A stretch of DNA of 32,020 bases from Acidobacteriota bacterium. GTDB lineage: Bacteria > Acidobacteriota > Vicinamibacteria > Vicinamibacterales > JACQTH01. The notes under the pieces are model-generated. The model was not told the DNA's origin and searched no databases. It was given only the letters and a program-made list of their open reading frames with translations. Shown here piece by piece: positions 1,870 to 29,292 of this stretch. The stretch covers positions 1 through 32,020 of the forward strand of contig JACOUA010000282.1 of NCBI GenBank assembly GCA_016178075.1, given 5' to 3'. Position 1 is the stretch's first letter. Each line of letters starts with the position of its first letter. The translations under genes and the position numbers were made by a program.

Positions 1870-1879
1870 CGCTGTTCTC

Positions 1880-3154: not shown

Positions 3155-3157
3155 CGA

Positions 3158-3835
3158 TCACTCTCCTTCGCGAAGGTAGATCACCTTCGGCTTCGTCCCG
3201 AGCTCTTCCATCAGGCGGAACGCCCGCGGGTTGTTCGCAAGCGCGGCCACGGCGCCGTGCGGATCGTCGAGGTCGCCGAACGTCATCGCTTCGGCGGGGC
3301 AGGTCTGGACGCAGGCCGGCACGTAATCGTCGGGCGCGAGGTCGCGCCCTTCGTCTCGCGCGCGCTCGCGCGCGAGCATCAGCCGATGGTGGCAGAAGGT
3401 GCACTTCTCGACGATGCCCTTGGGACGGAGCGATACGTCCGGGTTCCGCATCTCGGCCATCGCGCCGGGCCACTCGGGCGAGGACCAGTTGAAGACCTTC
3501 ACGCTGTACGGGCACGCGTTCGTGCAGTAACGACAGCCAATGCACCGTGGATACACTTGCGCCACGATGCCCTCGGGGCTCAGATACGTCGCGCTGGTCG
3601 GACACACATCCGTACACGGCGGACGGTCGCAGTGCTGGCACATCAACGGCAACGCGGACGGCCCGACACGTCCCGGCGTTTCCGCGGGCACCAGGTGGAT
3701 CCACGTCAGCAGCCGCCCGTGCGTGGCTTCCGCGGGCGTCGAAAACGGCACGTTGTTCTCGTGCTTACAGGCGACCACGCAGGCCTGGCAGCCGGTGCAG
3801 CGATCGAGGTCGATGACGAGTCCCCAGCGTGGCAT
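3158..3835 (-). CDS. Ferredoxin-like subunit with four [4Fe-4S] clusters (PsrB/QrcC/ActB2 type)
   Basis: The 225-residue protein has the Cys pattern of the DmsB/PsrB/NrfC family: CTGCQACVVAC near residue 16, CQHC-x3-PC-x3-CP, CIGCRYCTNACP, and CTFC paired with a later CVQTCP. That is enough ligands for four [4Fe-4S] clusters. It should wire the Mo-oxidoreductase-like subunit to the NrfD subunit. In alternative complex III the equivalent module is fused to the ActB subunit; here it is a separate gene as in Qrc or polysulfide reductase. It has no signal peptide of its own; such subunits usually ride out with the Tat-exported partner, which is encoded just upstream. A 144-base gap with two hairpins separates it from that partner. 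Confidence 0.9.
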   Translation of the reverse strand: MPRWGLVIDLDRCTGCQACVVACKHENNVPFSTPAEATHGRLLTWIHLVPAETPGRVGPSALPLMCQHCDRPPCTDVCPTSATYLSPEGIVAQVYPRCIGCRYCTNACPYSVKVFNWSSPEWPGAMAEMRNPDVSLRPKGIVEKCTFCHHRLMLARERARDEGRDLAPDDYVPACVQTCPAEAMTFGDLDDPHGAVAALANNPRAFRLMEELGTKPKVIYLREGE

Positions 3836-3913
3836 GACGGTTCTCTCTTCTAATGCGCGTGGGGCTCCTCACGCGTTCTACGCGCTGCGCGCGACGGCGC
3901 GACGGTCTACCAC

Positions 3914-3976
3914 CCCAACGCGGCTGCCCGTTGGGACCCCGGCCCTTGGCCTTGCTGCGGCGCGTCGCGCCGCAGC
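3914..3976. terminator. Two hairpins between the Mo-oxidoreductase-like and ferredoxin genes
   Basis: The nearly perfect palindrome GCTGCGGCGCG/CGCGCCGCAGC (arms 3954-3964 and 3966-3976) begins 3 bases after the stop of the gene ending at 3980. A second, weaker hairpin has 7-bp arms at 3914-3920 and 3929-3935. The remaining genes of the operon follow in the same direction, so full termination is unlikely. An attenuating or RNA-stabilising role is inferred. Confidence 0.45.
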
Positions 3977-3979
3977 CGC

Positions 3980-6193: not shown

Positions 6194-6720
6194 CAGCGAT
6201 GACACGCCACGCAGTCTTCCGTGGCGCCCTCAGTCTTGTGGCACGAGAGGCAGGCGTTCATGTCGAGACGCACCGGCGCGGAAGTGAGCGCGTCCCGCCG
6301 TGCGCGCATGTCGCCGTGACACGACGCGCAATCGAGCTTCGCGGACGTGACGTGCCGGCGGTGGGAGAACATCACGTGGTCCGGCAGCCGTGTGACCCGG
6401 ACCCACGCCGGGCGCGCTCTGCGCGCCAGCTCGTCCCATGTCGGTTTTTGGCCGTCCGACCCGGGGAGCGCCGGCCCCGCGCTCAGCACGACCTCCACTG
6501 GGCGAGGCGGCGTTGCGTGACAGTTCAGGCACGCGGCCACTTCCGGAATCCCAGCGCGGGCCGAGCGCTCGGCGCCGCGATGGCACGCGACGCAGGTCAC
6601 TTCGGTGTGCTTCGCGTGATCGAACGGGATCGGTTGATCGACTGCGGCCGGCGGGAGCAGGACCACCCAAATCGCCGCTGAGATCGCCGCGACCGCCGTC
6701 AGAAGAAGCGCGCGCGCCAT
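6193..6720 (-). CDS. Pentahaem class III-like cytochrome c (ActA/QrcA-like)
   Basis: The 175-residue protein has an N-terminal hydrophobic segment (about residues 4-22) serving as anchor or signal and five CxxCH motifs at 43, 64, 131, 157 and 170. Extra His residues in FDHAKH and MFSHRRH are likely second axial ligands, as in cytochrome c7/c3. ActA of alternative complex III is also pentahaem, whereas QrcA, as I recall it, carries six haems, which favours the Act comparison. It should take electrons from the iron-sulfur arm of the complex on the periplasmic side. GGAG stands about 5 bases before the ATG. Its stop overlaps the start of the Mo-oxidoreductase-like gene, indicating coupled translation and a shared complex. 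Confidence 0.87.
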   Translation of the reverse strand: MARALLLTAVAAISAAIWVVLLPPAAVDQPIPFDHAKHTEVTCVACHRGAERSARAGIPEVAACLNCHATPPRPVEVVLSAGPALPGSDGQKPTWDELARRARPAWVRVTRLPDHVMFSHRRHVTSAKLDCASCHGDMRARRDALTSAPVRLDMNACLSCHKTEGATEDCVACHR

Positions 6721-7848: not shown

Positions 7849-10005
7849 TCAGAAGAAGTACAGGATGCGGAAGAACCCTGTGTTGCCTTTGTAGGGCCGG
7901 TTTCCGTAGCCAGTGCTGATCTCACCGAGGTAGTCGATCCGCGGCGTGCCCGGCTGGCCGGGGACATCGACTGTCGCGTAGTCGCTGATGTCGAACTTCT
8001 CGTACCAGTAGCCGAGGCCGACGCCGACCTTGGCCGCAAACATGTACTTGAGATCCACCATGAAGCGCTGCCACTTGTTCGTGATGGCCGGCAGCGGCTC
8101 GAAGCAGGACGTGAGCCCCGCTGCGCACGGGGAAGGAATCGTGAACCCGGGGTACAGGATGGCCGAGGGGCCGGACAGCGCCTTGTTCGTGGACAGCTCC
8201 TGAATTCGCGGACCACTATGGATGTACGCGTTGTTCGAGTCGCTGTAGTCATAGCTCACGCTGATGTCGGTCTTCTCGATCGCCTTGATCAAGTCGAGGT
8301 AGATGGTCGCGATGTTGACCTTCTCGTCGTTGTTCAGGAACCAGTTTCGGTTCGGGTCGAACCAGGTGCCATAGTCGGTGCCGGCGGGACTCGCGTTTCG
8401 CGACGCCTGGTTGCTGACGTACTGGTCGCGGCCGTAGTTCGCCCCCACCCGCACGCTCGGCATCGGGCTCGCGTTGATCCCGAAGTTGTAGACAGTGTTC
8501 TTGTTGTCCATCAGACCGAACTCGCGGCCCGGCCCCCCAAACGTGTCCCTGCCGGCGGCCACCGCGAAGCTGAGATCGAGAAGCGACACCGGGGTCACGG
8601 TGAACGCCATCCAGCCTCGGTCCCGAACGCGATCCGCAATGTCGTACGTCCGCAGGCCCGGTTGAAATCCGGCTTCCTCGAGAAGCTCCACGGACAAGCC
8701 CGTGCCGACTCGCTCCGAGTGCTCATAGATCAGCCGCACCATGAGGTACTGGTTCCCTACGGTGTCGACCGTCGTGCGGAAGGTGTAGTCCGTCGAACCA
8801 CTGAGTTCCCGGCTCGTCCGCTTGAAGTCATCGAGGGTGTAGCCGAGCCTGATGGATGTTCTCGACGTCACGTTGAACAATCCGTTCACGTCGAGCGTGT
8901 TCTGTCTAATGTTGAACGGTTCGGTCTCGCCACCGGTCTCCTCGGGTACCGCGTCCAACCGGACGTACTCCCTCGCGTCGAACGTCGGCGTCCGGTTCTG
9001 GCGATCGTTGTAGCGGTACCTCATGGTCAGCCCAAAGAAGCGAGTGGGCCGCGTGGTGTAGTTGACGAGCGCGTTGACACCCCGCACCTCCGCTTCGGCG
9101 GTGTTGCGCGGAAGGCTCGCAAGGCCGGGAAAATTCTTGTACACGGCCGGGCTGGCGATCACCGCATTGCTCGTCCACGGGATGAGCGTGTCGTTCTGTC
9201 TCATCGTCGTGAAGGAGAGCTGGGCATTCACGGCACTGTGCGCCGGCATCTTGTACAGACCGATGGCGCTCACGGTGTTGAGGTTGTTGCTTGGCGGCAC
9301 CGACATGCGGCTCCGCGCGGCGCCGCGGCCGTTGCTGTACCCGCTGAAGTCGATCGGGCTCGTATCGGTCGCCCTGACGGGGTTGTCGAACAGCAGCTCG
9401 TGGATGTTGTTGTGAAACCAGGACCCGTCCCACGCGACGCGGACCATCCCCTCAGGCTTGGTCCATTCCGCGGCCGCCGAAAAGTCGTTCGTCCGGTTGT
9501 CGAGCGGGACCGGCAACTGGTCGGCGACGCTGAACCCAAACGACGCGCCTTTGGGCTCGTGCCCGTTTCTGGCCGTCGAGTTGAACGAAAAGTTGAACGT
9601 CAGGTCCTTGCTGGAGGCAAACGACGCGGTGAGGCCGGCCACATCACGGCGCGCCTGGATGTCGAACGGTTTCGCCAGGCTTCGGTAGATTGATCCGGTC
9701 GCGAGCTGCGCCACGTTGCCCGGCACACCGACGACACCGGGGGTGTTGTTCTGGACGAGGAGCCGGGTGGCGGACTCGGGAGTCTCCTTGCCGAACACGA
9801 TTCGGGAAAGAGCGCCGTCCCGCAGGTCGCGGAAGCGCTCGAATCGTGCCTTGTCGCCATCGACCGTAGACACCCGCCCGCCGAATTCCATGGACCCAAT
9901 AGTGACGGTCGGCGCGTGGGGCGCCGCGGGGGGCTGCTGTCCCATGGCGACGCCCGCGGAGGCCACCACGAGCACGGCCGTCGCAATCGTCAGTCTGTTG
10001 CACAT
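7849..10005 (-). CDS. MtrB/PioB-family outer-membrane beta-barrel of a porin-cytochrome conduit
   Basis: The 718-residue protein has a signal peptide (MCNRLTIATAVLVVASAGVAMGQ) and then alternating beta-strand segments through to a C-terminal Phe (RILYFF), the usual signal for outer-membrane insertion. The N-terminal block FGGRVSTVDGDKARFERFRDLRDG is characteristic of MtrB/PioB/DmsF proteins, which sheath a decahaem cytochrome and let electrons cross the outer membrane. The decahaem gene lies directly upstream (10141-11103). The ATG at 10005 is chosen since AAGGAG is 7 bases before it; an ATG at 10011 is too close to that site. The CxxC near the N terminus of Shewanella MtrB is not seen; the mature chain's visible Cys pair is in SPCAAGLTSC. 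No outer-surface MtrC/OmcA-type cytochrome gene is present. Confidence 0.87.
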   Translation of the reverse strand: MCNRLTIATAVLVVASAGVAMGQQPPAAPHAPTVTIGSMEFGGRVSTVDGDKARFERFRDLRDGALSRIVFGKETPESATRLLVQNNTPGVVGVPGNVAQLATGSIYRSLAKPFDIQARRDVAGLTASFASSKDLTFNFSFNSTARNGHEPKGASFGFSVADQLPVPLDNRTNDFSAAAEWTKPEGMVRVAWDGSWFHNNIHELLFDNPVRATDTSPIDFSGYSNGRGAARSRMSVPPSNNLNTVSAIGLYKMPAHSAVNAQLSFTTMRQNDTLIPWTSNAVIASPAVYKNFPGLASLPRNTAEAEVRGVNALVNYTTRPTRFFGLTMRYRYNDRQNRTPTFDAREYVRLDAVPEETGGETEPFNIRQNTLDVNGLFNVTSRTSIRLGYTLDDFKRTSRELSGSTDYTFRTTVDTVGNQYLMVRLIYEHSERVGTGLSVELLEEAGFQPGLRTYDIADRVRDRGWMAFTVTPVSLLDLSFAVAAGRDTFGGPGREFGLMDNKNTVYNFGINASPMPSVRVGANYGRDQYVSNQASRNASPAGTDYGTWFDPNRNWFLNNDEKVNIATIYLDLIKAIEKTDISVSYDYSDSNNAYIHSGPRIQELSTNKALSGPSAILYPGFTIPSPCAAGLTSCFEPLPAITNKWQRFMVDLKYMFAAKVGVGLGYWYEKFDISDYATVDVPGQPGTPRIDYLGEISTGYGNRPYKGNTGFFRILYFF

Positions 10006-10019
10006 CGCCATTCTCCTTG

Positions 10020-10141
10020 TAACGAAGCTCCGCTTCGTTACTAGATCCGCGGCCGCTCGCGCGGCCGCGGCTAAGCCGTGGTTGCACGGCGACATTTGAC
10101 AGGTTTGTGCCACATTCATCTCCACGCCGTGCAAGCACGGC
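10020..10141. other. Cluster of four hairpins between decahaem and porin genes
   Basis: Four inverted repeats fill this gap: TAACGAAGC/GCTTCGTTA (10020-10040), CCGCGGCCGC/GCGGCCGCGG (10047-10056 and 10061-10070), GCCGTG/CACGGC at 10075-10090, and the same 6-bp arms at 10126-10141. The last overlaps the decahaem stop codon. The final two are near-identical copies in opposite orientation (15 of 16 bases), so they can also pair with each other. The two flanking genes probably form one transcript, with this cluster setting their relative expression; that role is inferred. Confidence 0.5.
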
Positions 10142-11103
10142 TAGCGGTGGAAGTACTTGCCAGACGGCGCGTTGGAGCCATGGATCTGCACGTGGCACAC
10201 CACGCAGCCGGATCCAATCAGCCTGTTGGCGCTGGCGGAGGTCCTCAGCGTGAAGCCCTCGTACACGGTTGGAGGATGTCGCGACGTCACATGGCACCGC
10301 TGACAGAGGAACGGCACCTTAGCGACGAGTAGCCGCTCGTTGTTCGATCCGTGCGGCTCGTGGCATGTCACGCAGGCATTCGCGACCGGCGCGTGCTCCC
10401 AGAGGTACGGCCCGCGCTTCTCGGCGTGGCAGCTCGTGCAGGCTTCGTTGACCGTCGTTCCCGCCTTGAGCAGCTTGACGTTGGGGGATCCGTGCGGGTT
10501 GTGACATGACGAGCACACCAGGCTGCCCTCGCGGACCGGCATGTGGTTGAAGCGGGAAATCTTGTTCACGACATTGCGATGGCAAGTGGAGCACAGCTCC
10601 GGCTGCGTTGTCGCCTTGATCTGCTTCTCGCCCTTGGGGCTGTGCACGCTGTGACACGTCGGGCAGCCGACATTTCGCTGGTCGTGCTGGCTCCCCGTCC
10701 AGAGTGCGTGTGTGCCGCGGTCGTGGCAAGTCGCGCAGATCTCACTTGCCTCACGCGGAGCCATGCCAGTCGTGCTGAACCGCCTGATCTTCGTCTTGTC
10801 GCCGACGTCGTCGAGATGCCCCTTGCCCGGTCCGTGGCACGTTTCGCAACCCTGCGCCGCGGCCGGACTACGTTCGAGAGAGGAGCGGCCATGCGGTGTG
10901 GCTTTGTACGCGTTGGTCTGCGCTTCGTGGCAGCTCGTGCACTTTTCCTGGCCAACGTACTCCCCGGCGGCTTGCTGGGACGACGCCTTTGCTGCGGACC
11001 CGGCCGGGGCGGAGTTGCTCGACGCCGACCCCGTCTGGACGAGCCACACCAGGGCAATCCCGGCGACGAGAACCCGGAGGACGGTCTTGCCGAATGACTG
11101 CAT
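10141..11103 (-). CDS. Decahaem c-type cytochrome, MtrA/DmsE/PioA family
   Basis: The 320-residue protein has a signal peptide (hydrophobic residues about 8-22) and exactly ten CxxCH motifs: CTSCH, CETCH, CATCH, CPTCH, CSTCH, CSSCH, CTSCH, CVTCH, CQRCH and CVVCH. Length and haem number match MtrA and DmsE. These proteins sit inside an MtrB-type barrel as a haem wire, and the barrel is the next gene. Typical second ligands are seen in NPHGS and EPHGS. GGAGAA stands 5 bases before the ATG at 11103. The gene heads a two-gene operon with its own promoter (11179-11232) and a structured leader. PioA works in Fe(II) oxidation and MtrA in mineral reduction, so the direction of flow is undecided. Confidence 0.92.
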   Translation of the reverse strand: MQSFGKTVLRVLVAGIALVWLVQTGSASSNSAPAGSAAKASSQQAAGEYVGQEKCTSCHEAQTNAYKATPHGRSSLERSPAAAQGCETCHGPGKGHLDDVGDKTKIRRFSTTGMAPREASEICATCHDRGTHALWTGSQHDQRNVGCPTCHSVHSPKGEKQIKATTQPELCSTCHRNVVNKISRFNHMPVREGSLVCSSCHNPHGSPNVKLLKAGTTVNEACTSCHAEKRGPYLWEHAPVANACVTCHEPHGSNNERLLVAKVPFLCQRCHVTSRHPPTVYEGFTLRTSASANRLIGSGCVVCHVQIHGSNAPSGKYFHR

Positions 11104-14674: not shown

Positions 14675-14800
14675 GCGGCCTCGCTGCCGGAATTCCGGCA
14701 CCGGGCCGGCCGTTCTCAATCCGGATTCCTGAAAGTCGCCCAAAACCAAACGTTTGTGAAGATCGCCGGCAGTGGCACCGCGGTTGCGACCTGCCGGGCC

Positions 14801-16195
14801 ATGCGGGCCACCGCTGTCGCCTCGATCACGGCCGACCTGCTTCGGATGTACGACAAGGCAGGTCCTCGGTACACGTCGTATCCGACAGCTGTTGAATTCA
14901 GCGACTCGTTTACGGCGGACGCCTATGGTGCGAAGCTCGATGAGGCGGCGACGCTCGACTCCGAGCCGCTCTCGCTCTACCTGCACCTGCCGTTCTGCGA
15001 AGAGCGCTGCACGTTTTGCGGCTGCGCGGTGATTGCCACGCGCCGCCGCGAGGTGGTCTCGCGGTACCTGGATTATCTCCTGCGCGAGATCGGGATGCTC
15101 GCCGATCGCTTGGGTCACCGCCGGCGAGTCATCCAGTATCACTGGGGTGGCGGCACGCCGACCTACCTCACCTCGGCCGAGTTGACGGCGCTCCACGCCG
15201 GCGTGCAGCGTCATTTTGGAATCGATCCGCAGGCCGAGGGCGGCGTCGAGGTCGATCCGCGCGTCACGACACGCGAGCAGATCGACACGCTGCGCGCGCT
15301 GGGATTCAATCGCCTCTCGATGGGCGTCCAGGACTTCACGCCGGAGGTGCAGGAGGCCATCGGTCGCCGCCAGAGCGCGGCCGCGACCCGGTCGCTCTTC
15401 TACGACGCCCGCGGCGCCGGGTTCCACTCGATCAACGTCGACCTCGTGTACGGATTGCCGCGTCAGCGACTGGAAACATTCAGCCGCACGATTGAATCGG
15501 TGGTCGAGATGCGCCCGGAGCGGGTCGCGGTCTACTCGTACGCGCACGTGCCGTGGCTGCGAGCGAACCAGAAGAAGATCGAGCCTCGCGATCTGCCCTC
15601 GCCGGAGCTGAAGCTCGACCTGTTCGGCGCCGCGGTCGACGTGTTCCTGGACGCGGGCTACCGCCAGATTGGGATGGACCATTTCGCGCGCCCGGATGAC
15701 GAGTTGGCCCGCGCGGCCGAGCGGGGCGCTCTCCACCGGAACTTCATGGGGTACACGACCAGGCTGGCGACCGACATGGTGGCGGCGGGCCTCACCGCGA
15801 TCGGCGACATCCGCGGCGCGTATGCGCAGAATGTGAAGAAGCTGTCGTCCTATTACGCGGCCCTCGATGCCGGACGGTTTCCGATCGAGCGCGGCTTGCC
15901 GCTGACGCGGGACGATCTGCTCAGGCGCTTCGTCATCACGCAGCTCATGTGCAATTTCACGGTTGACCTTGCCGAGGTCGAGCGCCGCTTCGGGGTGTCG
16001 GTCGAGGATTACTTTGCGCGGGAGCTGATCGCGCTGGCCTCAGGTCCCGCGGCGCACGGGTTCGTGACGATGAGACCGGATCGCTTGCAGGTGACGGTGC
16101 GAGGCCGGTTGTTCGTCAGGAACATCTGCATGGTGTTCGACCACTATCTGCGGCAGAAGCCAGTGGAGCAGCGGATGTTTTCCCGAACGATTTGA
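14801..16195 (+). CDS. hemN: Oxygen-independent coproporphyrinogen III dehydrogenase (radical SAM)
   Basis: HemN converts coproporphyrinogen III to protoporphyrinogen IX with S-adenosylmethionine and a [4Fe-4S] cluster, without oxygen, in the cytosol. The cluster motif CEERCTFCGC gives Cys66, Cys70 and Cys73 plus the extra Cys75 that marks true HemN. Also present are the N-terminal GPRYTSYPTAVEF block, YHWGGGTPTYL, EVDPR, NRLSMGVQDF, GFHSINVDLVYGLP and, at the C terminus, GRLFVRNICMVFD. The 464-residue length fits the family. The ATG at 14801 gives the usual spacing of about 20 residues to GPRYTSYPT; a GTG at 14756 would add 15 residues and neither has a good ribosome site. It is the first gene of a haem operon. 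Confidence 0.95.
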   Translation: MRATAVASITADLLRMYDKAGPRYTSYPTAVEFSDSFTADAYGAKLDEAATLDSEPLSLYLHLPFCEERCTFCGCAVIATRRREVVSRYLDYLLREIGMLADRLGHRRRVIQYHWGGGTPTYLTSAELTALHAGVQRHFGIDPQAEGGVEVDPRVTTREQIDTLRALGFNRLSMGVQDFTPEVQEAIGRRQSAAATRSLFYDARGAGFHSINVDLVYGLPRQRLETFSRTIESVVEMRPERVAVYSYAHVPWLRANQKKIEPRDLPSPELKLDLFGAAVDVFLDAGYRQIGMDHFARPDDELARAAERGALHRNFMGYTTRLATDMVAAGLTAIGDIRGAYAQNVKKLSSYYAALDAGRFPIERGLPLTRDDLLRRFVITQLMCNFTVDLAEVERRFGVSVEDYFARELIALASGPAAHGFVTMRPDRLQVTVRGRLFVRNICMVFDHYLRQKPVEQRMFSRTI

Positions 16196-16218
16196 CGAGG
16201 CCCAAGCCCAAAGCCAAC

Positions 16219-17244
16219 ATGAATCCAATGACCGCCGTCCTGCTGTACAACCTCGGCGGCCCCACGACGCTCGACGAGGTCGAGCCGTTTCTGACGGAGC
16301 TGTTCTCCGATCGCGACATCATCGCGCTGCCCGCCGGCGCGATGATTCAGCCCGCGTTCGGCCGGGCGCTCGCGAAGTGGCGGGCGCCGTCGGTGCGCGA
16401 GAACTACCGGCGCATCGGCGGTGGGTCGCCGATTCGAGCGTCGACGGCCGGCCAGGCCAGGCTGCTGGAGACCCGGCTGAACGCAGGCCGCGGGACCCGC
16501 GCGGGATCATTCAGGGTGTTCGTGTCGATGCGCTACCTGAAGCCGAGCATCGGCGATGCGCTCCGCAAGATCCGAGCCGAAGGCATCACCCGTATCGTCA
16601 CCCTGTCCCTGTTTCCGCACTGGTCACACGCCACGACGGGCTCGTGGAGGCACGAGCTGGAGCGGGTGCTCCAATCGTCCGAGTGGCGGGATGCAGGCTT
16701 CGACGTCACCGACATCGATCGATATCCTGCAGAGCCTTTCTATCTCGATGCCCTCGCCGATACGGTACGGCACGCGCTCGATCGGTTCTCGCCGGCCGTT
16801 CGATCGGATGCGGTGATTCTCTTCAGCGCGCACGGCTTGCCCCAGGCGCTCGTGGATCGTGGCGATCCCTACGTGACGGACATCGAAGCCACGCGGTCCG
16901 GCGTGTGGGAGCGCCTGCGGGTTTCCAACCGGCAGCTCCTCGGCTACCAGTCGCGGGTGGGTCCGGTGCGGTGGATCGGCCCCGGCACCGACGAGTTGAT
17001 CGACCGGCTGGGCCAGGAGGGCGTGAAACACCTCCTCATCGTGCCCCTCTCCTTCGTGTCCGATCACATCGAGACGCTGTACGAGATCGATCTCCTGTTC
17101 GCGGAACGGGCCAAGCGCGCCGGCATTCGTGAATGCCTTCGGAGCGAGGCGCTGAACGGTCATCCTGGGTTCATCGAGGCGCTGGGGCAGCTCGTCGAGC
17201 GGCACCTGGCGGCTGCGGGCGAGCCCGTGCGAGTGTTTGCATGA
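16219..17244 (+). CDS. hemH: Ferrochelatase
   Basis: HemH inserts Fe2+ into protoporphyrin IX to make haem b. Family signatures are all visible: VLLYNLGGPTTLDEVEPFL at the N terminus, YRRIGGGSPI, RYLKPSIGDAL, the active-site loop LSLFPHWSHATTGS with its conserved His, ILFSAHGLPQALVDRGDPY, and FVSDHIETLYEIDLLFAERA with the catalytic His-Glu pair. At 341 residues it has normal length. The ATG at 16219 is used, although a TTG overlapping the hemN stop would also be in frame; a GAGG is 19 bases upstream of the ATG. It overlaps the next gene by 4 bases (ATGA), showing tight coupling in haem synthesis. Confidence 0.95.
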   Translation: MNPMTAVLLYNLGGPTTLDEVEPFLTELFSDRDIIALPAGAMIQPAFGRALAKWRAPSVRENYRRIGGGSPIRASTAGQARLLETRLNAGRGTRAGSFRVFVSMRYLKPSIGDALRKIRAEGITRIVTLSLFPHWSHATTGSWRHELERVLQSSEWRDAGFDVTDIDRYPAEPFYLDALADTVRHALDRFSPAVRSDAVILFSAHGLPQALVDRGDPYVTDIEATRSGVWERLRVSNRQLLGYQSRVGPVRWIGPGTDELIDRLGQEGVKHLLIVPLSFVSDHIETLYEIDLLFAERAKRAGIRECLRSEALNGHPGFIEALGQLVERHLAAAGEPVRVFA

Positions 17245-18767
17245 CGCGCGTCGCCATCGTCGGCGGCGGCATCGGGGGCCTCGCGCTGGCTGAAGCGCTG
17301 GACAGGTTGTCGGACGCCGCGGATCCGGTCGATGTCATCGTGTTCGAACGGAGCGACCGCGCCGGTGGGAACATCCGAACCGAGCGATTCGACGGCTATC
17401 TCTGCGAGCGGGGGCCGAACGGGTTTCTCGACAACGCGCCAGCCACCCTGGCGCTCGTCGGTCGCCTCGGACTGGCGCCGCTCGTGCTCTCCAGCAACGA
17501 TGCTGCGCGCCGGCGGTTCGTGTTCGCGCGCGGCCGGCTCCACGAGATTCCCACCTCGGTGACCGCCTTCGCGCGCAGCGATTTGTTGTCGTTCAGGGGC
17601 AAGCTGCGGTTGCTGGCGGAGCCGTTCGCGCGGGGACGAGTGGACCCGGATGAGAGCATCCATGACTTTGCGGCACGGCGCATCGGTCGAGAGGCTGCGG
17701 CGCTGCTCGTCGACCCGATGGTCTCCGGCATCTTCGCCGGGGACTCGCGCACGCTGTCCTTGCGCGCGTGCTTCCCGAAGATGTGGGAGATGGAGACGCG
17801 GTACGGCAGCCTGGTGCGCGCAATGTTCGCGAGGCGACGCGCGCGTCGCCGCGTCGCGGCCGCAGAGAGCGCCCTCGGCGCGCCAGCCGGTCGGCTGACC
17901 TCGTTTCGCGGCGGGATGCAGGATCTGGTCGACGCGCTGGTCCGCGCCCTCGGGCACAGGGTCCGGCTCGGCACCTCTGTCGTCGGCATCCACGAACGCG
18001 CCGAACTCGATGCGCATCACGGGATCCGAACCGACACGCGCTCGACGCGCTTCGTCCTCACGTTGGAGGATGCACCTCCCGTGGACGCCGACGCGGTCAT
18101 CCTCGCAGGCTCGGCCGCCCAATCATCGCGACTGCTCCAGCCAGTCGATGCGAGGCTGGCCCGTGCGATTGGCGGGATCGCGACCGCGCCGCTGGCGGTG
18201 GTCTGCCTCGGCTTCGACGCGGCGTCGCGGTCTCAGTCCGGGCCAGTGAACGCCGGCGGGCACAATCTGATCGCCGACGGCTTCGGCTTCCTCGTGCCGC
18301 GCGGGGAAGGTCCACGTGCGCTCGGCGTGCTCTGGGACTCGAGCATCTATTCGGGCCGCGCGCCACACGGTCGCGTGCTGATGCGCGCGATGTTCGGAGG
18401 CGCGCACGATCCCGAAGCGGTAACGTTGTCGGACGCGGAGTTGCTTCTCCAGGCCCGTGCCGATCTCCAGCACACCATGGGTCTGACGGATGCCCCACTC
18501 TTCAGTCTGGTCGTTCGACACCGCGTCGGCATCCCGCAGTACACAATCGGCCACCAGTCGAGGCTCGACCTGATCGCGTCGCTGCTTCACCTTCACCCCG
18601 GACTCTTCGTCGCCGGCCACTCCTATCGCGGCGTGTCGATGAACGCCTGCATTGCGGACGCGGATCCGCTCGCGCGCCGTGTGCTGGACGCTCTGGCCGC
18701 AAGGCGGTATCCAGCGGTGGAGTCCATCGGTGCCGCCGGCGGGCACCGCGTCTGCAGCGTGGCCTAG
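17241..18767 (+). CDS. hemG: Protoporphyrinogen oxidase (HemY-type flavoprotein)
   Basis: The 508-residue protein begins with the FAD-binding motif VAIVGGGIGGLALAEAL and continues with VIVFERSDRAGGNIRTE and the CERGPNGFLDNAPATLALVGRLGL block typical of HemY-type enzymes (also named hemY). LVDPMVSGIFAGDSRTLSLRACFPKMWEME is a second strong family block, and GLFVAGHSYRGVSMNACI is the C-terminal FAD site. It oxidises protoporphyrinogen IX to protoporphyrin IX, the step between HemN and HemH. Most characterised HemY enzymes use oxygen, yet the upstream HemN is oxygen-independent, so the organism may make haem under both conditions or this enzyme may use another acceptor. The ATG overlaps the hemH stop as ATGA. 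Confidence 0.93.
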   Translation: MTRVAIVGGGIGGLALAEALDRLSDAADPVDVIVFERSDRAGGNIRTERFDGYLCERGPNGFLDNAPATLALVGRLGLAPLVLSSNDAARRRFVFARGRLHEIPTSVTAFARSDLLSFRGKLRLLAEPFARGRVDPDESIHDFAARRIGREAAALLVDPMVSGIFAGDSRTLSLRACFPKMWEMETRYGSLVRAMFARRRARRRVAAAESALGAPAGRLTSFRGGMQDLVDALVRALGHRVRLGTSVVGIHERAELDAHHGIRTDTRSTRFVLTLEDAPPVDADAVILAGSAAQSSRLLQPVDARLARAIGGIATAPLAVVCLGFDAASRSQSGPVNAGGHNLIADGFGFLVPRGEGPRALGVLWDSSIYSGRAPHGRVLMRAMFGGAHDPEAVTLSDAELLLQARADLQHTMGLTDAPLFSLVVRHRVGIPQYTIGHQSRLDLIASLLHLHPGLFVAGHSYRGVSMNACIADADPLARRVLDALAARRYPAVESIGAAGGHRVCSVA

Positions 18768-24018: not shown

Positions 24019-24063
24019 GGATCGGCGATTGGCGATTGCGAGATTGCCAATCGTCAATTCTTC
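24009..24063. repeat. Inverted repeat with heptamer units spanning two convergent stop codons
   Basis: GAAGAATTGA (24009-24018) and TCAATTCTTC (24054-24063) are perfect inverted arms; between them are heptamer-like units (ATCGGCG, ATTGGCG) and GCCAATCG. Each arm encodes the last two residues and stop (Lys-Asn-stop) of the gene it ends: the zipper gene on plus and the cupin on minus. It can act as a bidirectional terminator. Its arm also matches the beginning of the array at 23256. Confidence 0.7.
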
Positions 24064-24407
24064 TGCCTCAGGTATCCATCCTCCTTCCGTATCCAGTCCT
24101 CCCGGCGCGGTGCGAAGAAATCGAACACGATGGTATCTTCGATCGCTTCCGCCGCGTGCGGGACGTTCGGCGGGATCGTCAGAATCTCGCCCGCCCCGAC
24201 GATGACTTCCCGATCGTCGAACCGGAATCGCAGCTTGCCCTGTACGACGTGTGAGAACTGTTCGGCGGGATGCGAGTGCCGGATGACGAGGGCGTGGCGG
24301 GCGAGATGGAAGCGGGCGACCGTGCCCATCCGGCCGTGGGTGACCTGCCGGGTGATCTTGTCGGTCATCGGTTCGGATTCGATGACGTCCCAGGCGCGCG
24401 GGTCCAT
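24054..24407 (-). CDS. Single-domain cupin protein
   Basis: The 117-residue protein is one cupin barrel. Metal ligands are visible in motif 1, RHSHPAEQFSHVVQGKL (His44, His46, and Glu49 or Gln50), and motif 2, GEILTIPPNVPHAAEA (His84). Such small cupins bind a divalent metal and serve as dioxygenases, isomerases or sensors; the substrate cannot be deduced. AAGGAG lies 6 bases before the ATG, so the start is firm. The gene is monocistronic and convergent with the broken zipper gene. Its last codons come from the inverted repeat at 24009-24063. Confidence 0.85.
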   Translation of the reverse strand: MDPRAWDVIESEPMTDKITRQVTHGRMGTVARFHLARHALVIRHSHPAEQFSHVVQGKLRFRFDDREVIVGAGEILTIPPNVPHAAEAIEDTIVFDFFAPRREDWIRKEDGYLRQKN

Positions 24408-24808: not shown

Positions 24809-25816
24809 ATGAGCATCGATCGGTCGCGGCTCCGGATCTTCTCGACCTGTCCCCAGTCCAAGGACGTCCCCCGCGAAGACTACTTCGCCCGCGTGGTCGA
24901 CGTGGCCCGGTGGAGCGAGCGCTATGGCTGTACCGGGATCCTGGTCTACACGGACAACGGCCTGGTCGATCCGTGGCTCGTCTCGCAAATCATCGTTCAG
25001 CATACCCGAACGCTGGCGCCGCTGGTTGCCGTTCAGCCGATCTACATGCATCCGTACTCGGTCGCGAAGATGCTGGCGACGATCGGGCACCTCTACGATC
25101 GCCCGCTCTATCTGAACATGGTGGCTGGTGGCTTCAAGAACGATCTGGAAGCGCTGAACGACCTGACGCCGCACGACCGTCGGTACGACCGGGTCGTCGA
25201 GTACACGACCATCATCAAGCTGCTGCTCGCGGGCGGCACCGTGTCGTTCCCCGGCGAGTTCTACCGCGTCGACCGCCTGAAGATGACGCCGCCGCTCGCC
25301 CAGCGGCTGTTTCCCGGCATCCTGATCTCGGGCTCGTCCGAGGCCGGGATGAACGCCGCACGACAGATTGAGGCGACGGCCATCCAGTATCCGAAGCCGG
25401 CCGGCGAGTACGCGAGCGGCACGGCCCTGAACGCCGGCGTCCGCGTGGGCATCATCGCGCGCGATCGCTCGGAAGAGGCGTGGGCCATCGCGGAAGCGCG
25501 GTTCCCGGTCGATCGCAAGGGCCAGATCACGCACGAGCTGGCGATGAAGACCTCGGATTCTGTCTGGCACAAGCAGCTGTCCGACCTCGGCCGCGAGGTG
25601 AAACACCAGCGGACGCCGTACTGGCTCGTGCCGTTCGAGAACTACAAGACGTTCTGTCCGTACCTGGTCGGCAGCTACGATCAAGTCGCCGCCGAGATCG
25701 CGCGCTATATCGGCGCGGGCTACGAGACCTTCATCCTGGACATCCCACCTGCCGAGGACGAGCTGTTTCACACCGGTGAGACGTTCGCCCGGGCGATGGA
25801 GGGCGTGCTCGTATGA
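24809..25816 (+). CDS. Luciferase-like (LLM-class) flavin-dependent monooxygenase
   Basis: The 335-residue protein has the TIM-barrel pattern of the bacterial luciferase/SsuD group: LRIFSTCPQSKDVPREDYFARVVDVARWSERYGCTGILVYTDNG, then APLVAVQPIYMHPYSVAKMLATIGHLYDRPLYLNMVAGGFKNDL. LFPGILISGSSEAGMNAARQI and GSYDQVAAEIARYIGAGYETFILDIPP are the family's phosphate-binding and closing regions. These enzymes use reduced FMN and O2 to hydroxylate or cleave a substrate. GAGG precedes the ATG at 24809 by 7 bases. It overlaps the adenylation gene by ATGA, so the substrate may be an amino acid held on the carrier protein encoded downstream, as for other LLM enzymes in peptide pathways; that link is inferred. 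Confidence 0.9.
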   Translation: MSIDRSRLRIFSTCPQSKDVPREDYFARVVDVARWSERYGCTGILVYTDNGLVDPWLVSQIIVQHTRTLAPLVAVQPIYMHPYSVAKMLATIGHLYDRPLYLNMVAGGFKNDLEALNDLTPHDRRYDRVVEYTTIIKLLLAGGTVSFPGEFYRVDRLKMTPPLAQRLFPGILISGSSEAGMNAARQIEATAIQYPKPAGEYASGTALNAGVRVGIIARDRSEEAWAIAEARFPVDRKGQITHELAMKTSDSVWHKQLSDLGREVKHQRTPYWLVPFENYKTFCPYLVGSYDQVAAEIARYIGAGYETFILDIPPAEDELFHTGETFARAMEGVLV

Positions 25817-27414
25817 GCCGACTGCTGCAGGAGCCGATCGCGCGGCACGCCTGCCTCGCCCCGCTCGCGACGGCAATCGTCGACGGCGGCCGGCGGGTGA
25901 CGTATCGGGAGCTCGAGGAGGCGTCGAACCGTCTGGCGCGCACGCTGCAGGACTCCGGCTGCTCGCGGGGCGACCGGATCTGCTTCGCCATTCCGAAGTC
26001 CGCCGACGCGATCATCACGATCCTCGCGATCCTGAAGGCCGATTGCGCCTACACGCCGCTGGACACGTCGAGCCCGGCGAGCCGCGTCGCGCACATCGTG
26101 CGCTCGTCGGACCCGCGTCTTGTGATCGGGACGCCGGCCACGCTGGCGTTCGTGGAACAGGTCCTGACGGAAGCCGGATCGCCCGACGTCCGGATCGGGC
26201 TCGTTGGCGATCGTCGCGCGAGCGCGGCCGGCTCGATCGCCTTCGCCGGTGTCGACCTGCGCGAGCGGCCCGCCGAGCCGATCGTCAGCCTCAATGCGCC
26301 GTCCGATCCGGCCTACATCTTCTTCACGTCCGGCTCCACCGGGACGCCGAAAGGAGTCGTGATCTCGCACAGCAACGTGTGGCACTTCGTGCGCTGGGCG
26401 AACCGGTACTTCGACCTCGGCCCGAACGATCGCGTGTCGGGGTACACACCGCTTCACTTCGATCTGTCGGTGTACGACGTCTTCGGCACGCTGACCGCCG
26501 GCGCGGAGTTCCATCTGGTGCCGCCGGAGGCCGGACTCGCGCCGGCGAAGCTGGCCGAATTCATCCGAGCCGCTCGCCTGACGCAGTGGTTCTCGGTGCC
26601 CTCGCTCCTCACCTACCTCGCCAAGGCGGACGCGATCAGGCCAAACGACTTCCCGTCCCTCAAACGCTTGCTGTGGTGCGGCGAGGTGCTCCCAACACCG
26701 GTCCTGAGGCACTGGATGACGCGGCTGCCGCACGTCACCTTCACGAACCTGTACGGCCCGACGGAAGCGACGATTGCCAGCAGCTACTACACCGTTCTGG
26801 CGTGTCCGGCCGACGAGCAGTCCCCGATTCCGATCGGCGTTTCATGCGAGGGCGAAGAGCTCCTTGTGCTGGACGAGCATCGCCGGCCGGTGCCCCCCGG
26901 AACGATTGGCGATCTCTACATCGCCGGGGTCGGGCTCAGCACGGGCTACTGGCGCGACCCTGAGAAGACGAAGGCAGCCTTCGTCGATCGCCCCGGCGGC
27001 GACGATCGCATCTACAAAACGGGCGACCTCGCCCGCGTGGGTGACGACGGGCTCGCGTATTTCCTGGGGCGAAACGACTCGCAGATCAAGAGCCGTGGCT
27101 ACCGGATCGAGCTCGGCGAGATCGAAACGGCGCTCAACGCACTCACCGCGCTCAAGGAATCGGCGGTCGTGGCGGTGCAATCGGACGGATTCGAAGGGGC
27201 GACGATCTGTTGCGCCTATGTGCCGGCGGGCGCGACCGACGTCACGCCGATCTACCTGCGGCAGGCGCTCGGCAAGACGCTGCCCTCGTACATGATGCCG
27301 ACCAAGTGGCTGGCGTACGACCTGTTACCAAAGAATGCCAATGGCAAAGTCGACCGACCCTTGCTGCGAGAGCACTTCCGGCAGCGTGACGCTCGCGCCG
27401 ATCGAACGGCCTGA
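25813..27414 (+). CDS. Stand-alone NRPS-type adenylation domain
   Basis: The 533-residue protein is one complete adenylation domain with no condensation or thiolation part. Core motifs: FTSGSTGTPKGV at 171-182, NLYGPTEATI at 312-321, YKTGD at 401-405, GRNDSQIKSRGYRIELGEIE at 419-438, and the catalytic Lys512 in NANGKVDR. By alignment to GrsA the specificity residues are Asp217, Leu218, Tyr221, Phe260, Leu287, Cys289, Leu313, Ile321 and Ala322. The code DLYFLCLIA most resembles the Cys code DLYNLSLI, but two positions differ. It should activate an amino acid as the adenylate and load the free carrier protein encoded at 27894. Asp217 indicates an alpha-amino group on the substrate. Confidence 0.93.
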   Translation: MSRLLQEPIARHACLAPLATAIVDGGRRVTYRELEEASNRLARTLQDSGCSRGDRICFAIPKSADAIITILAILKADCAYTPLDTSSPASRVAHIVRSSDPRLVIGTPATLAFVEQVLTEAGSPDVRIGLVGDRRASAAGSIAFAGVDLRERPAEPIVSLNAPSDPAYIFFTSGSTGTPKGVVISHSNVWHFVRWANRYFDLGPNDRVSGYTPLHFDLSVYDVFGTLTAGAEFHLVPPEAGLAPAKLAEFIRAARLTQWFSVPSLLTYLAKADAIRPNDFPSLKRLLWCGEVLPTPVLRHWMTRLPHVTFTNLYGPTEATIASSYYTVLACPADEQSPIPIGVSCEGEELLVLDEHRRPVPPGTIGDLYIAGVGLSTGYWRDPEKTKAAFVDRPGGDDRIYKTGDLARVGDDGLAYFLGRNDSQIKSRGYRIELGEIETALNALTALKESAVVAVQSDGFEGATICCAYVPAGATDVTPIYLRQALGKTLPSYMMPTKWLAYDLLPKNANGKVDRPLLREHFRQRDARADRTA

Positions 27415-27943
27415 GATCACGCTCGTCGCCGGGTGGCTGGCCGATCCGGAGAATGCCCGGTGGCTGGACTTCGGCGCCGGCCATCAGGTGCTCACAGCGA
27501 CCTCGCTCGCGGTGATGCTGCAGCGCGACATCCACGTCCTCAGGGCCGTGCGTGTCGCCGATGCGGAGCCGCCGGTCGGCCTCGTGGCGCTGAGCAACGT
27601 GGACCGGCGGTTCCGGACCGCGCAACTCTGGTACGTGCTCGGCGACAAGCGATACGCCGGCCGCGGCTACACGACGGTCGCGGTCGCGCGGCTGCTCGAC
27701 GTCGGGTTCGACGATATCGTGCTGGACGCGATCAACGCCTGGGCGGTCGAACCGAATCGGGCGTCGATTCGGGTGCTCGAGCGAAACCACTTCCGCCTCG
27801 TCGGCCGGCAGCGCCAGTGTCATTACATCGACGGCCGGCCGTTCGACCGTCTGCTCTTCGACCTGTTGGCGTCGGAGTTCAAGGAGAACCGGGATGCGCG
27901 ATCGGCAGAGTCTTCAGAGCTCACTGTTGAAGTTGTTCGCTGA
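27335..27943 (+). CDS. GNAT-family N-acetyltransferase (RimJ/RimL-like)
   Basis: The protein reads VTLAPIERPEITLVAGWLADPENARWLDFG at the start, as in RimJ/RimL-type acetyltransferases. The fold continues with PPVGLVALSNVDRRFRTAQLWYVLGDKRYAGRGYTTVAVARLLDVGF, which includes the acetyl-CoA loop (KRYAGRGY), and ends NRASIRVLERNHFRLVGRQRQ. It transfers an acyl group from CoA to an amine. The start is uncertain: ATGs at 27335 and 27341 would overlap the adenylation gene by 74-80 bases, while a GTG at 27386 would begin right at the domain. Its 3' end overlaps the carrier gene by 50 bases. The neighbours suggest acylation of the carrier-bound product. Confidence 0.85.
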   Translation: MPMAKSTDPCCESTSGSVTLAPIERPEITLVAGWLADPENARWLDFGAGHQVLTATSLAVMLQRDIHVLRAVRVADAEPPVGLVALSNVDRRFRTAQLWYVLGDKRYAGRGYTTVAVARLLDVGFDDIVLDAINAWAVEPNRASIRVLERNHFRLVGRQRQCHYIDGRPFDRLLFDLLASEFKENRDARSAESSELTVEVVR

Positions 27944-28151
27944 GAAGCTGCACGTGGAGGTGCCGTCACCCAACGTGGATCTCGTCGAGATCGGCGTGCT
28001 CGATTCCCTCGGCTTCGTCACCCTCCTGATGCACCTCGAAGAGGACTTCGGCGTGGCCGTGCCGATCGAGGACCTCGACGTCGAGAGGTTCCGCTCGGTC
28101 GCCCGCATCACCGGCTATCTCAGCGAGCGCCTGTTGACGCCGGCGGCGTAG
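27894..28151 (+). CDS. Free-standing acyl/peptidyl carrier protein
   Basis: The 85-residue protein is a four-helix carrier: LLKLFAEKLHVEVPSPNVDLVEIGVLDSLGFVTLLMHLEEDFGVAVPIEDLDVERFRSVARI. Ser38 in V-L-D-S-L is the site for the phosphopantetheine arm. Downstream acidic helix II (LEEDFG) is typical for recognition by partner enzymes. The adenylation domain at 25813 should load it. AAGGAG lies 7 bases before the ATG, inside the preceding GNAT gene, so the start is firm. No phosphopantetheinyl transferase or thioesterase gene lies in the window; these must be supplied from elsewhere. Confidence 0.93.
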   Translation: MRDRQSLQSSLLKLFAEKLHVEVPSPNVDLVEIGVLDSLGFVTLLMHLEEDFGVAVPIEDLDVERFRSVARITGYLSERLLTPAA

Positions 28152-28167
28152 GACCGAGGACCGGACC

Positions 28168-28884
28168 ATGACGTTGATTCACCGCACGCTGAAGACCCTG
28201 CGCGAGCGGGGCCTCCGCGAGACCCGTCGGCGGATCGCCGGCCGGTTCTCGTCGCGGCATGTGTCGTACGGCTTGACGTGCGACCTGGGCCGCATGCCGC
28301 GCGGACCCGCGTGCCGGCTCGGCCTTCGGCTCCGACCGCTCGCCGACCGGGACGTGCCGCTGCTCTTTGACCACTGGGCCCACACGCACGAGCCGGTGCT
28401 GGTGGACGAGCGCCTGGAACTGATTGCCTCGGGTGCGGGGCGTTCCCTCGTCGCCGTCGATCCCGAGGACCGTCCGTGCTTCATGATCTGGATGGCGACC
28501 TCGGGTGAGAACGAGCGGCTCCGCGCGGTGTTCGGCAGCGGCTATCCGGTGCTCCAGCCGGGTGAGGCGGTGCTCGACGGCATGTTCGTGCCCAAAGGCT
28601 TCGAGGGCATGAACGTCGTTCCCGCGGCGATCCGGGAGGTGGCGGCGCTCGCCAAGGGGGCCGGCCTCCATCGCCTGATCATCTTCTCCTACCACTCGCG
28701 CCCGGCCGCGCTGTTCGCGCTTCGTCAGGCGGGGTTCCTGCCGTATTGCGTGAAGGTCGATTCGCGGCGTTTCTTCTTCCACAGGGTTATCTTCCGGCCG
28801 TTCTCGACGGAGGACTTCGGCGGGAAATCAGGTCAGCTGGCAAAGTTCGCGCTGTTTGCCGGAACCGTCGGACAGGCAGGGTAG
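28168..28884 (+). CDS. Second GNAT-like acyltransferase of the carrier operon
   Basis: The 238-residue protein has a basic N-terminal segment of about 35 residues (TLKTLRERGLRETRRRIAGRFSSRH), followed by a GNAT-like core: LGLRLRPLADRDVPLLFDHW, LVAVDPEDRPCFMIWMA, AVLDGMFVPKGFEGMNVVPAAIREVAALAKGAGLHRLIIFSYHSRPAALFALRQAGFLPY. GFEGMN stands where the acetyl-CoA loop falls and ALRQAGFLPY is the usual closing motif. GAGG lies 8 bases before the ATG. It may act on the carrier-bound amino acid or release it by condensation with an amine; this is inference. It ends the operon, and a hairpin begins on its stop codon. Confidence 0.75.
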   Translation: MTLIHRTLKTLRERGLRETRRRIAGRFSSRHVSYGLTCDLGRMPRGPACRLGLRLRPLADRDVPLLFDHWAHTHEPVLVDERLELIASGAGRSLVAVDPEDRPCFMIWMATSGENERLRAVFGSGYPVLQPGEAVLDGMFVPKGFEGMNVVPAAIREVAALAKGAGLHRLIIFSYHSRPAALFALRQAGFLPYCVKVDSRRFFFHRVIFRPFSTEDFGGKSGQLAKFALFAGTVGQAG

Positions 28885-29058: not shown

Positions 29059-29277
29059 CTAGCGCGCGCGGAAGGTGATGATGCCCCGAACGGGATCGTA
29101 GGGGGAAACCCCCACCGTCACGCGATCGCCGGGCACCACCTTGATGCGGAAACGGCGCATCCGGCCGCTGAGCTGCGCGAGCACATCGTGGCCGGCATCG
29201 GTCTGCACGCGGTAAATGCCGCCGCTGTGGACGGCCACTACGGTGCCTTGCACATCAATCAAATCGTCCTTGCTCAA
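29059..29277 (-). CDS. infA: Translation initiation factor IF-1
   Basis: The 72-residue protein is the OB-fold IF-1: LSKDDLIDVQGTVVAVHSGGIYRVQTDAGHDVLAQLSGRMRRFRIKVVPGDRVTVGVSPYDPVRGIITFRAR (quoted in parts by position: the SGRMRRFRI core at about 41-49 and SPYDPVRGIITFR near the end). It binds the A site of the 30S subunit during initiation. The start is a TTG at 29277, supported by GGGAGG 4 bases upstream and by the family's usual length of 72. It is not in the usual ribosomal-protein operon here: the neighbours are a biosynthetic operon and a coat-protein gene. Hairpins of heptamer repeats stand on both sides. Confidence 0.93.
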   Translation of the reverse strand: MSKDDLIDVQGTVVAVHSGGIYRVQTDAGHDVLAQLSGRMRRFRIKVVPGDRVTVGVSPYDPVRGIITFRAR

Positions 29278-29292
29278 AACGCCTCCCAAACA

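Follow-up and report, generated by a model that had tools for sequence, protein, structure and literature searches.

The DNA studied here is one whole contig (G000:C125, 32,020 bases; referred to below as the window) from the genome of an Acidobacteriota bacterium that comprises 4.96 Mb in 457 contigs and is 87% complete. Between positions 24809 and 28884 it carries five tightly packed open reading frames (ORFs) on the forward strand, which together form the operon in question:

24809-25816, + strand: luciferase-like monooxygenase (LLM) of the SsuD/MsuD branch, reduced flavin mononucleotide (FMNH2) type (PF00296, 115 bits)
25813-27414, + strand: stand-alone amino acid adenylation (A) domain (AA-adenyl-dom, 400.3 bits with a cut-off of 317.4; PF00501, PF13193)
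27386-27943, + strand, ORF open from ATG 27335: GNAT1, RimJ/SpeG-like N-acyltransferase (PF13302, 51.1 bits with a cut-off of 25.4)
27894-28151, + strand: free carrier protein (PF00550, 46.6 bits with a cut-off of 20.8)
28168-28884, + strand: GNAT2, divergent GNAT-fold protein with an N-terminal extension (predicted fold; one relative over a GNAT Pfam cut-off)

The LLM and A-domain genes overlap by 4 bases, the A-domain and GNAT1 genes by 29 or 80 bases (depending on the GNAT1 start) and the GNAT1 and carrier genes by 50 bases, and the carrier stop lies 16 bases before the GNAT2 start. The initial annotation had described precisely such a set of overlapping or closely spaced genes, without a condensation domain, thioesterase or transporter, and this description holds: the identities are confirmed by Pfam and NCBIfam matches (for GNAT2 by fold), the spacing by the ORF coordinates, and a Pfam domain search found none of the three missing functions in the five proteins. 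A fragment of a modular nonribosomal peptide synthetase (NRPS) was rejected as a reading, since neither a condensation domain nor a thioesterase was found in them.

In other genomes the conserved unit is the LLM, the A domain and the carrier, and the acyltransferases vary. Relatives were collected by scanning 84,980 species, each represented by a single genome, with a profile of 13 LLMs, which returned 271 stretches and 257 relatives; locus counts come from the best 80 of these 257, the loci being picked by the LLM alone. Testable loci were those with at least 2 kb downstream (n = 71), at least 4.5 kb downstream (n = 56) or 8 kb on both sides (n = 35, the long loci). An A domain lies directly downstream of the LLM in 68/71 loci (exceptions L047, L055 and L065), and 54 of the 56 have an A domain, 49 of them a carrier as well. 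Loci with no carrier match on the same strand are L042, L043, L055, L063, L065, L082 and L083, with L042 and L043 having a carrier on the other strand. LLM and A-domain identities are correlated (r 0.51 over 70 sets including the window, with 0/1000 permutations as high), a figure that still includes shared descent. The 80 loci are not independent, as many are metagenome-assembled genomes with like sample names, and L094 and L119 are, judging by their lengths, the contigs of L028 and L012. Conservation by mere chance in one genome, an outcome that the initial annotation had allowed for, does not agree with the position of the A domain after the LLM in all but three of the testable loci.

The distribution of the LLM is scattered, which suggests horizontal transfer. 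Own genome included, it occurs in 3/193 genomes of the same class (E<=1e-30) and in 14/396 genomes of the phylum (E<=1e-40), and it is the sole PF00296 protein found in the source genome. Record titles of the relatives name Acidobacteria, Gemmatimonadetes, Latescibacterota, alpha-, beta- and deltaproteobacteria, Nitrospira, Rokuibacteriota, Planctomycetes and Verrucomicrobiota, and further Chloroflexi, Trueperaceae, Solirubrobacteraceae, Nannocystineae and others, amounting to more than ten phylum-level groups. Partial sets also exist: in L035 and L037 the LLM is accompanied by a carrier but no A domain, in L036 and L038 (55-56% identity) it is alone, and L039, L040 and L041 (LLM relatives at 43%, 40% and 35% identity) have no A or carrier match in the available stretch. 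Eight plasmid records matched, of which four were examined (LLM identity 38-48%). In every one of the four, AMP-binding or A-domain genes lie no more than 6 kb from the LLM; a phosphopantetheinyl transferase is encoded in three, and an annotated phosphopantetheine-binding protein lies 4 to 10 kb away in three. On the p1 plasmid of Gemmobacter fulvus (L124:450-6292) an AMP-binding gene, a halogenase, the LLM, an acyl-CoA dehydrogenase and a phosphopantetheinyl transferase stand in a row, which looks like a route to a halogenated carrier-bound product. On pSCL4 of S. clavuligerus (L138) an A domain 41% identical to that of the window has two SbnB-like genes and an SbnA-like one in its vicinity, as read from the sequence, an arrangement that would suit diaminopropionate synthesis. 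Phage-borne relatives were dismissed, the five records giving SsuD-like matches only, at a distant 24-29% identity.

The A domain consists of an A core and a C-terminal subdomain without any further domain, passes the cut-off of TIGR01733 and keeps Asp235 and Lys517 (positions set by sequence motifs). Its ten-residue pocket, for which sequence motifs likewise set the positions so that the code is a reading and not a model, is DLYSLCLIAK. In a comparison of 73 A sequences, from which six incomplete ones were excluded, the pattern DL[FYHS]S[LMIVF]C[LIV][IV]AK fits 64/67 complete A domains (window included), the deviating ones being L052, L102 and L112. Two A types can be told apart by identity to the window (50 sequences at or above 42%, window included, and 20 below), with nearly the same pocket in both; the type II form is carried by Bradyrhizobium strains and a Nitrospira defluvii genome. 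As the pocket is almost invariant, one small amino acid is probably used throughout, and the pocket would make it alanine- or glycine-like. It also resembles DLMSFCTVAK, which we take to be the pocket of DltA, and the DVFSLCTVAK of a single A domain in the Rhizobium plasmid cluster and another in that of Tritonibacter; the remaining A domains of the four plasmid clusters differ. Naming the exact substrate was rejected, because partly similar pockets sit in unlike clusters (Shinella DLYSMSLIWK, S. clavuligerus DLFSLALVCK) and alanine, glycine, serine and cysteine are therefore indistinguishable. A second adenylate-forming enzyme with a quite different pocket (D[YC]NGT[ST]MRSK) lies near the module in L059:14183-15667, L078:15704-17170 and L111:16811-18265, accompanied in L059 and L078 by a second carrier; it may perhaps serve the same polysaccharide cluster as an acyl-loading set of its own.

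The LLM matches SsuD with a phmmer E of 1.2e-24 and a profile E of 4.9e-32, and its nearest solved structures are alkanesulfonate monooxygenases, with MsuD as the best Foldseek match (E 5.2e-21) of its predicted structure (pLDDT 86). It lies below the NCBIfam equivalog cut-off for SsuD, TIGR03565 (116.8 against 518.2 bits). Six SsuD residues that we take to be those of the sulfonate site were checked in an alignment read by eye: C54, W196, H228, R297 and Y331 face L52, A191, G214, Y279 and P313, and R226 alone is retained, as R212. A sulfonatase was rejected as the main interpretation for this reason, five of the six residues being replaced. TIGR04020 (MupA/Atu3671) is absent among the 13 NCBIfam matches of the LLM at E<=0.001. 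A flavin reductase gene lies near the LLM in L028, L029, L031 and L033 and adjoins it in L039; among the 80 loci one is close in L094, L110 and L115, and the L095 copy is about 5.5 kb off (Pfam confirms one of these calls, L094). In L050:7505-9739 about 400 residues upstream of the LLM, with no Pfam match, are read in the same uninterrupted frame, which is either a fusion or a missed boundary.

The carrier has 85 residues, with the phosphopantetheine serine at position 38 (bases 28005-28007) in a DSL motif within GVLDSLGF, and among NCBIfam models it reaches 40.9 bits on DltC and 41.6 bits on AmcB, both under cut-off. GNAT1 has weak SpeG and PseH matches, also under cut-off, and of its two possible starts GTG 27386 is probably the true one rather than ATG 27335, as relatives fit it better by eye. 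For GNAT2 there was no Pfam or NCBIfam match at E<=0.001; a loosened search gave PF00583 alone (E 0.066, 13.9 bits with a cut-off of 20.7), and one of three relatives, L048, is barely over the GNAT cut-off (20.8 against 20.7 bits). Its model (mean pLDDT 70) has a tandem GNAT as the best Foldseek match (E 1.4e-8, TM score about 0.5), and in VIA-align 857/999 aligned chains reach a Z of at least 8 with GNATs in the top rows, including VipF (Z 15.2, root-mean-square deviation (rmsd) 5.1, 161 aligned) and a glucosamine N-acetyltransferase (Z 13.5, rmsd 3.1, 153 aligned). On these grounds GNAT2 is most likely a GNAT.

Around the conserved core the acyltransferases change from locus to locus. The initial annotation had counted both GNATs as part of the set; the core recurs, and the GNATs do not define it (GNAT1 relatives in 13/56 testable loci, GNAT2 in 2/80). 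A formyltransferase is found in 7/56 and never together with GNAT1 (0/56), and in L048, L049, L054, L068, L070 and L087 it sits between A domain and carrier, the place of GNAT1 in the window. Members of two other families, GNAT3 or GNATb, follow in 30/56 loci and are related to each other (profile-comparison probability 94.9%). A NodU-type carbamoyltransferase occurs in 19/35 long loci (Pfam check on one). A formyltransferase-like start (read from the sequence) joined to a GINT1_N domain (Pfam, L047 copy) comes directly after the LLM in L047:2732-4450 and L065:10997-12724.

Many relatives lie in polysaccharide clusters. At least one exopolysaccharide (EPS) or glycosyltransferase marker is present in 19/35 long loci and at least two in 17/35, and excluding the eight Bradyrhizobium loci the former count becomes 19/27. 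A sugar-transferase gene occurs in 13/35 against about 0.012 expected per 21 kb (PF02397 at 0.57 per Mb, or 133 matches in 231.9 Mb of 60 Acidobacteriota genomes), roughly a 31-fold excess that is approximate, as it sets counts by a custom hidden Markov model (HMM) against Pfam counts and many loci are outside Acidobacteriota. An O-antigen ligase is found in 13/35. Membership in a larger known cluster type, which the initial annotation had named as an outcome that would count against it, is thus borne out by half: it applies to the marker-bearing loci and not to the remaining 16/35. For the window operon itself the polysaccharide link is indirect: contig C256 of the source genome holds an XrtA-type EPS locus (models for EpsB_2, polysaccharide deacetylase and FemAB pass their cut-offs, those for the XrtA ATPase and for chain length fall short), in which a GNAT2 paralogue, 28% identical, stands beside a NodU relative and a glycosyltransferase-like gene.

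Taken together, these observations may be read as a mobile tailoring module in which a small amino acid would be loaded, oxidised on a carrier, acylated and transferred to an amine, often that of a polysaccharide amino sugar; we regard this account as about evenly poised between right and wrong. The A domain would adenylate one small amino acid and load it onto the free carrier, where the LLM with FMNH2 would oxidise the aminoacyl group, the likeliest change being the addition of a hydroxyl to the alpha carbon or the amine. That the LLM acts on the carrier-bound group is probable by analogy, because of the strong LLM-A-carrier linkage and the precedents of BtrO and the palmerolide LLM (see below). 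The FMNH2 would be supplied by a reductase whose gene is close to the module in some relatives and at another place in this genome. GNAT1, or the formyltransferase in some relatives, would then add an acyl group to the amino acid nitrogen or to the amine of the acceptor sugar, and GNAT2, or the GNAT3/GNATb family in relatives, is proposed to move the finished acyl group from the carrier to an amine, which in many hosts may be an amino sugar of a surface polysaccharide. The initial annotation had likewise assumed activation, tethering, on-carrier oxidation and acyl transfers, and the gene linkage supports the first three; GNAT1, for its part, may act on the amino acid or on a sugar amine.

Known systems share parts of this scheme. 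In butirosin synthesis the acyl group of the side chain ends on an amino sugar and the pathway uses an ATP-grasp ligase, a pyridoxal-phosphate decarboxylase and a papain-like transferase, instead of which the window set has an A domain and GNATs; neither such a ligase nor such a decarboxylase is among the five operon genes. The butirosin proteins BtrI/BtrJ/BtrO/BtrH are alike in that a monooxygenase of the same broad superfamily, BtrO, hydroxylates an amino acid within a carrier-protein pathway (PMC2922099). Palmerolide-type LLM domains of polyketide synthases and NRPSs (the TIGR04020 group) are proposed to alpha-hydroxylate synthase intermediates (PMC8739492). These LLMs differ in being parts of large synthases and in belonging to another subfamily, the window LLM having no TIGR04020 match at the threshold given above. 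XrtA/PEP-CTERM EPS systems are alike by way of the source-genome XrtA-type locus with its GNAT2 paralogue and NodU relative, and differ in that the window operon sits on a different contig, one that has no EPS markers. In the tetronate pathway (wbe/rfb) of Vibrio cholerae O1 we know of no LLM. This pathway is similar in that dedicated genes make an acid that acylates the sugar amines of a polysaccharide, the perosamine amines carrying tetronate, and different in that the acid is tetronate and not an amino acid, and the term 'carrier protein' is absent from the paper (PMC3441752).

Several observations weigh against the proposed scheme as a whole or against single steps of it. No PF01613 flavin reductase was found in the source genome at its 87% completeness, so that either a different reductase must supply FMNH2 or the gene belongs to the part of the genome that is missing, and in L047, L055 and L065 the LLM has neither an A domain nor a carrier nearby. 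The mutual exclusion of GNAT1 and formyltransferase was rejected as proof of a shared slot and is kept only as a hint, because chance alone would give zero co-occurrence with P 0.14, and the L048 formyltransferase is nearest to PRK06988 and then ArnA (both under cut-off), a likeness that points to a sugar amine at least as readily as to an amino acid. Custom HMMs found no GNAT1, formyltransferase or NodU gene in 16/56 loci, and therefore the acylation step is not general. A common origin of GNAT2 with GNAT3/GNATb is unsupported, the profiles giving no match. GNAT2 itself is rare, with no match in 296 other Acidobacteriota genomes at E<=1e-6 and two copies among the 80 loci, each immediately preceding the LLM: one in L048 (35% identity) and one in L059 (a weak first match, 20.4 bits), whose frame runs on into a methyltransferase-like part, as read from the sequence. 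The long loci without EPS markers include all eight from Bradyrhizobium, and in the 32 kb window custom HMMs found no glycosyltransferase, Wzy, Wzc or sugar-transferase gene.

The main rival, especially for the stand-alone window and Bradyrhizobium sets, is a free small metabolite: the module would make a diffusible amino acid derivative, N-acylated and oxidised and perhaps serving as a signal or metallophore, that GNAT2 releases onto a small amine, with the EPS linkage as a separate recruitment. The window operon and the Bradyrhizobium sets do stand alone (8/8 long Bradyrhizobium loci are without EPS markers), the four plasmid relatives are in secondary-metabolism-like clusters with P450, halogenase, condensation domain or phosphopantetheinyl transferase genes, and an N-oxygenase with a GNAT or formyltransferase is the usual pair of hydroxamate siderophore pathways. 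The EPS or glycosyltransferase markers in 19 of the 27 long loci outside Bradyrhizobium, the lack of a transporter among the five operon proteins and the GNAT2 paralogue in an EPS locus speak against a diffusible product, which we consider possible, if somewhat unlikely.

The oxidation may also take place off the carrier, the LLM being an oxidase of sugars or sulfonates whose gene merely accompanies a set for aminoacyl transfer that works independently of it. This would fit its place in the SsuD/MsuD branch, as well as L047 and L065, where the LLM is paired with the formyltransferase-GINT1 protein and an AAC(3)-like acetyltransferase (read from the sequence), without A domain or carrier; the close adjacency of LLM and A domain elsewhere, the LLM-carrier pairs without an A domain in L035 and L037 and the retention of R226 alone among the SsuD site residues make it improbable. 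Less probable still, and in our view very doubtful, is a D-alanylation-like system of the DltA/DltC type that moves unmodified alanine to a glycan while the LLM acts on something else. The teichoic acid D-alanine system does resemble the window set in having a lone A domain and a free carrier for one small amino acid, a similar pocket (compare the DVFSLCTVAK of the two plasmid A domains) and a cell-surface polymer as destination, and the A domain and carrier score about 306 bits on DltA and 41 bits on DltC. Yet all Dlt equivalog cut-offs are missed (TIGR01734, 306.2 against 559.85 bits; NF003464, 40.9 against 68; TIGR01688, 36.8 against 52.35), the window set has the added LLM oxidation step and soluble GNAT transferases, and the LLM stays with the A domain across the more than ten phylum-level groups of the record titles. 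Neither DltB (MBOAT) nor DltD was recognised among the window ORFs read, the genome as a whole not having been searched for them.

If the tailoring module is real, it links the way in which bacteria decorate their surface glycans with flavin chemistry and with the nonribosomal activation of amino acids. A more specific reading, speculative and rather unlikely to be right as it stands, is that a hydroxamate-like N-hydroxy-N-acyl or alpha-hydroxylated aminoacyl group is built on the carrier by chemistry of the NRPS kind and put on the surface polysaccharide, which would give many soil bacteria a metal-binding or reactive exopolysaccharide; this would amount to a carrier-protein route for oxidised amino-acid glycan decoration across more than ten phylum-level groups. 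To our knowledge, the polysaccharides of the host lineages have been little studied. Searches of an open-access library, in which most subscription papers are missing, found neither the LLM-A-carrier module nor its occurrence in polysaccharide clusters described, in line with the view of the initial annotation that no named pathway has this set. Every part is of a known kind, and what is new seems to be the combination and its spread.

The operon is flanked on both sides by unrelated genes, of which two read on the reverse strand:

24054-24407, - strand: cupin-like ORF, reading away from the operon (named from the sequence, without a model match)
29059-29289, - strand: infA (model match)

Further upstream, at 14756-18767 on the + strand, hemN, a hemH-like gene and protoporphyrinogen oxidase stand in a row (hemH read from the sequence, the others model matches), and L037 has hemN-like and protoporphyrinogen-oxidase-like genes upstream of its LLM (read from the sequence); a meaningful link between heme genes and the LLM was set aside, and the proximity is taken as coincidence. 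At 7849-11103 on the - strand an MtrB/PioB-like outer-membrane protein (180.9 bits, missing the cut-off of 240.05) adjoins a DmsE-family decaheme cytochrome (255.6 bits with a cut-off of 192.2), a pair suggestive of extracellular electron transfer through a porin-cytochrome conduit. Beside it, one run at 610-6720 on the - strand encodes a multi-domain c-type cytochrome, an NrfD-like membrane protein, a ferredoxin-like protein, a QrcB/PhsA-like molybdopterin-family protein and a small multiheme cytochrome; with model matches for the first and fourth proteins and the others read from the sequence, it is a predicted respiratory complex next to the electron conduit.

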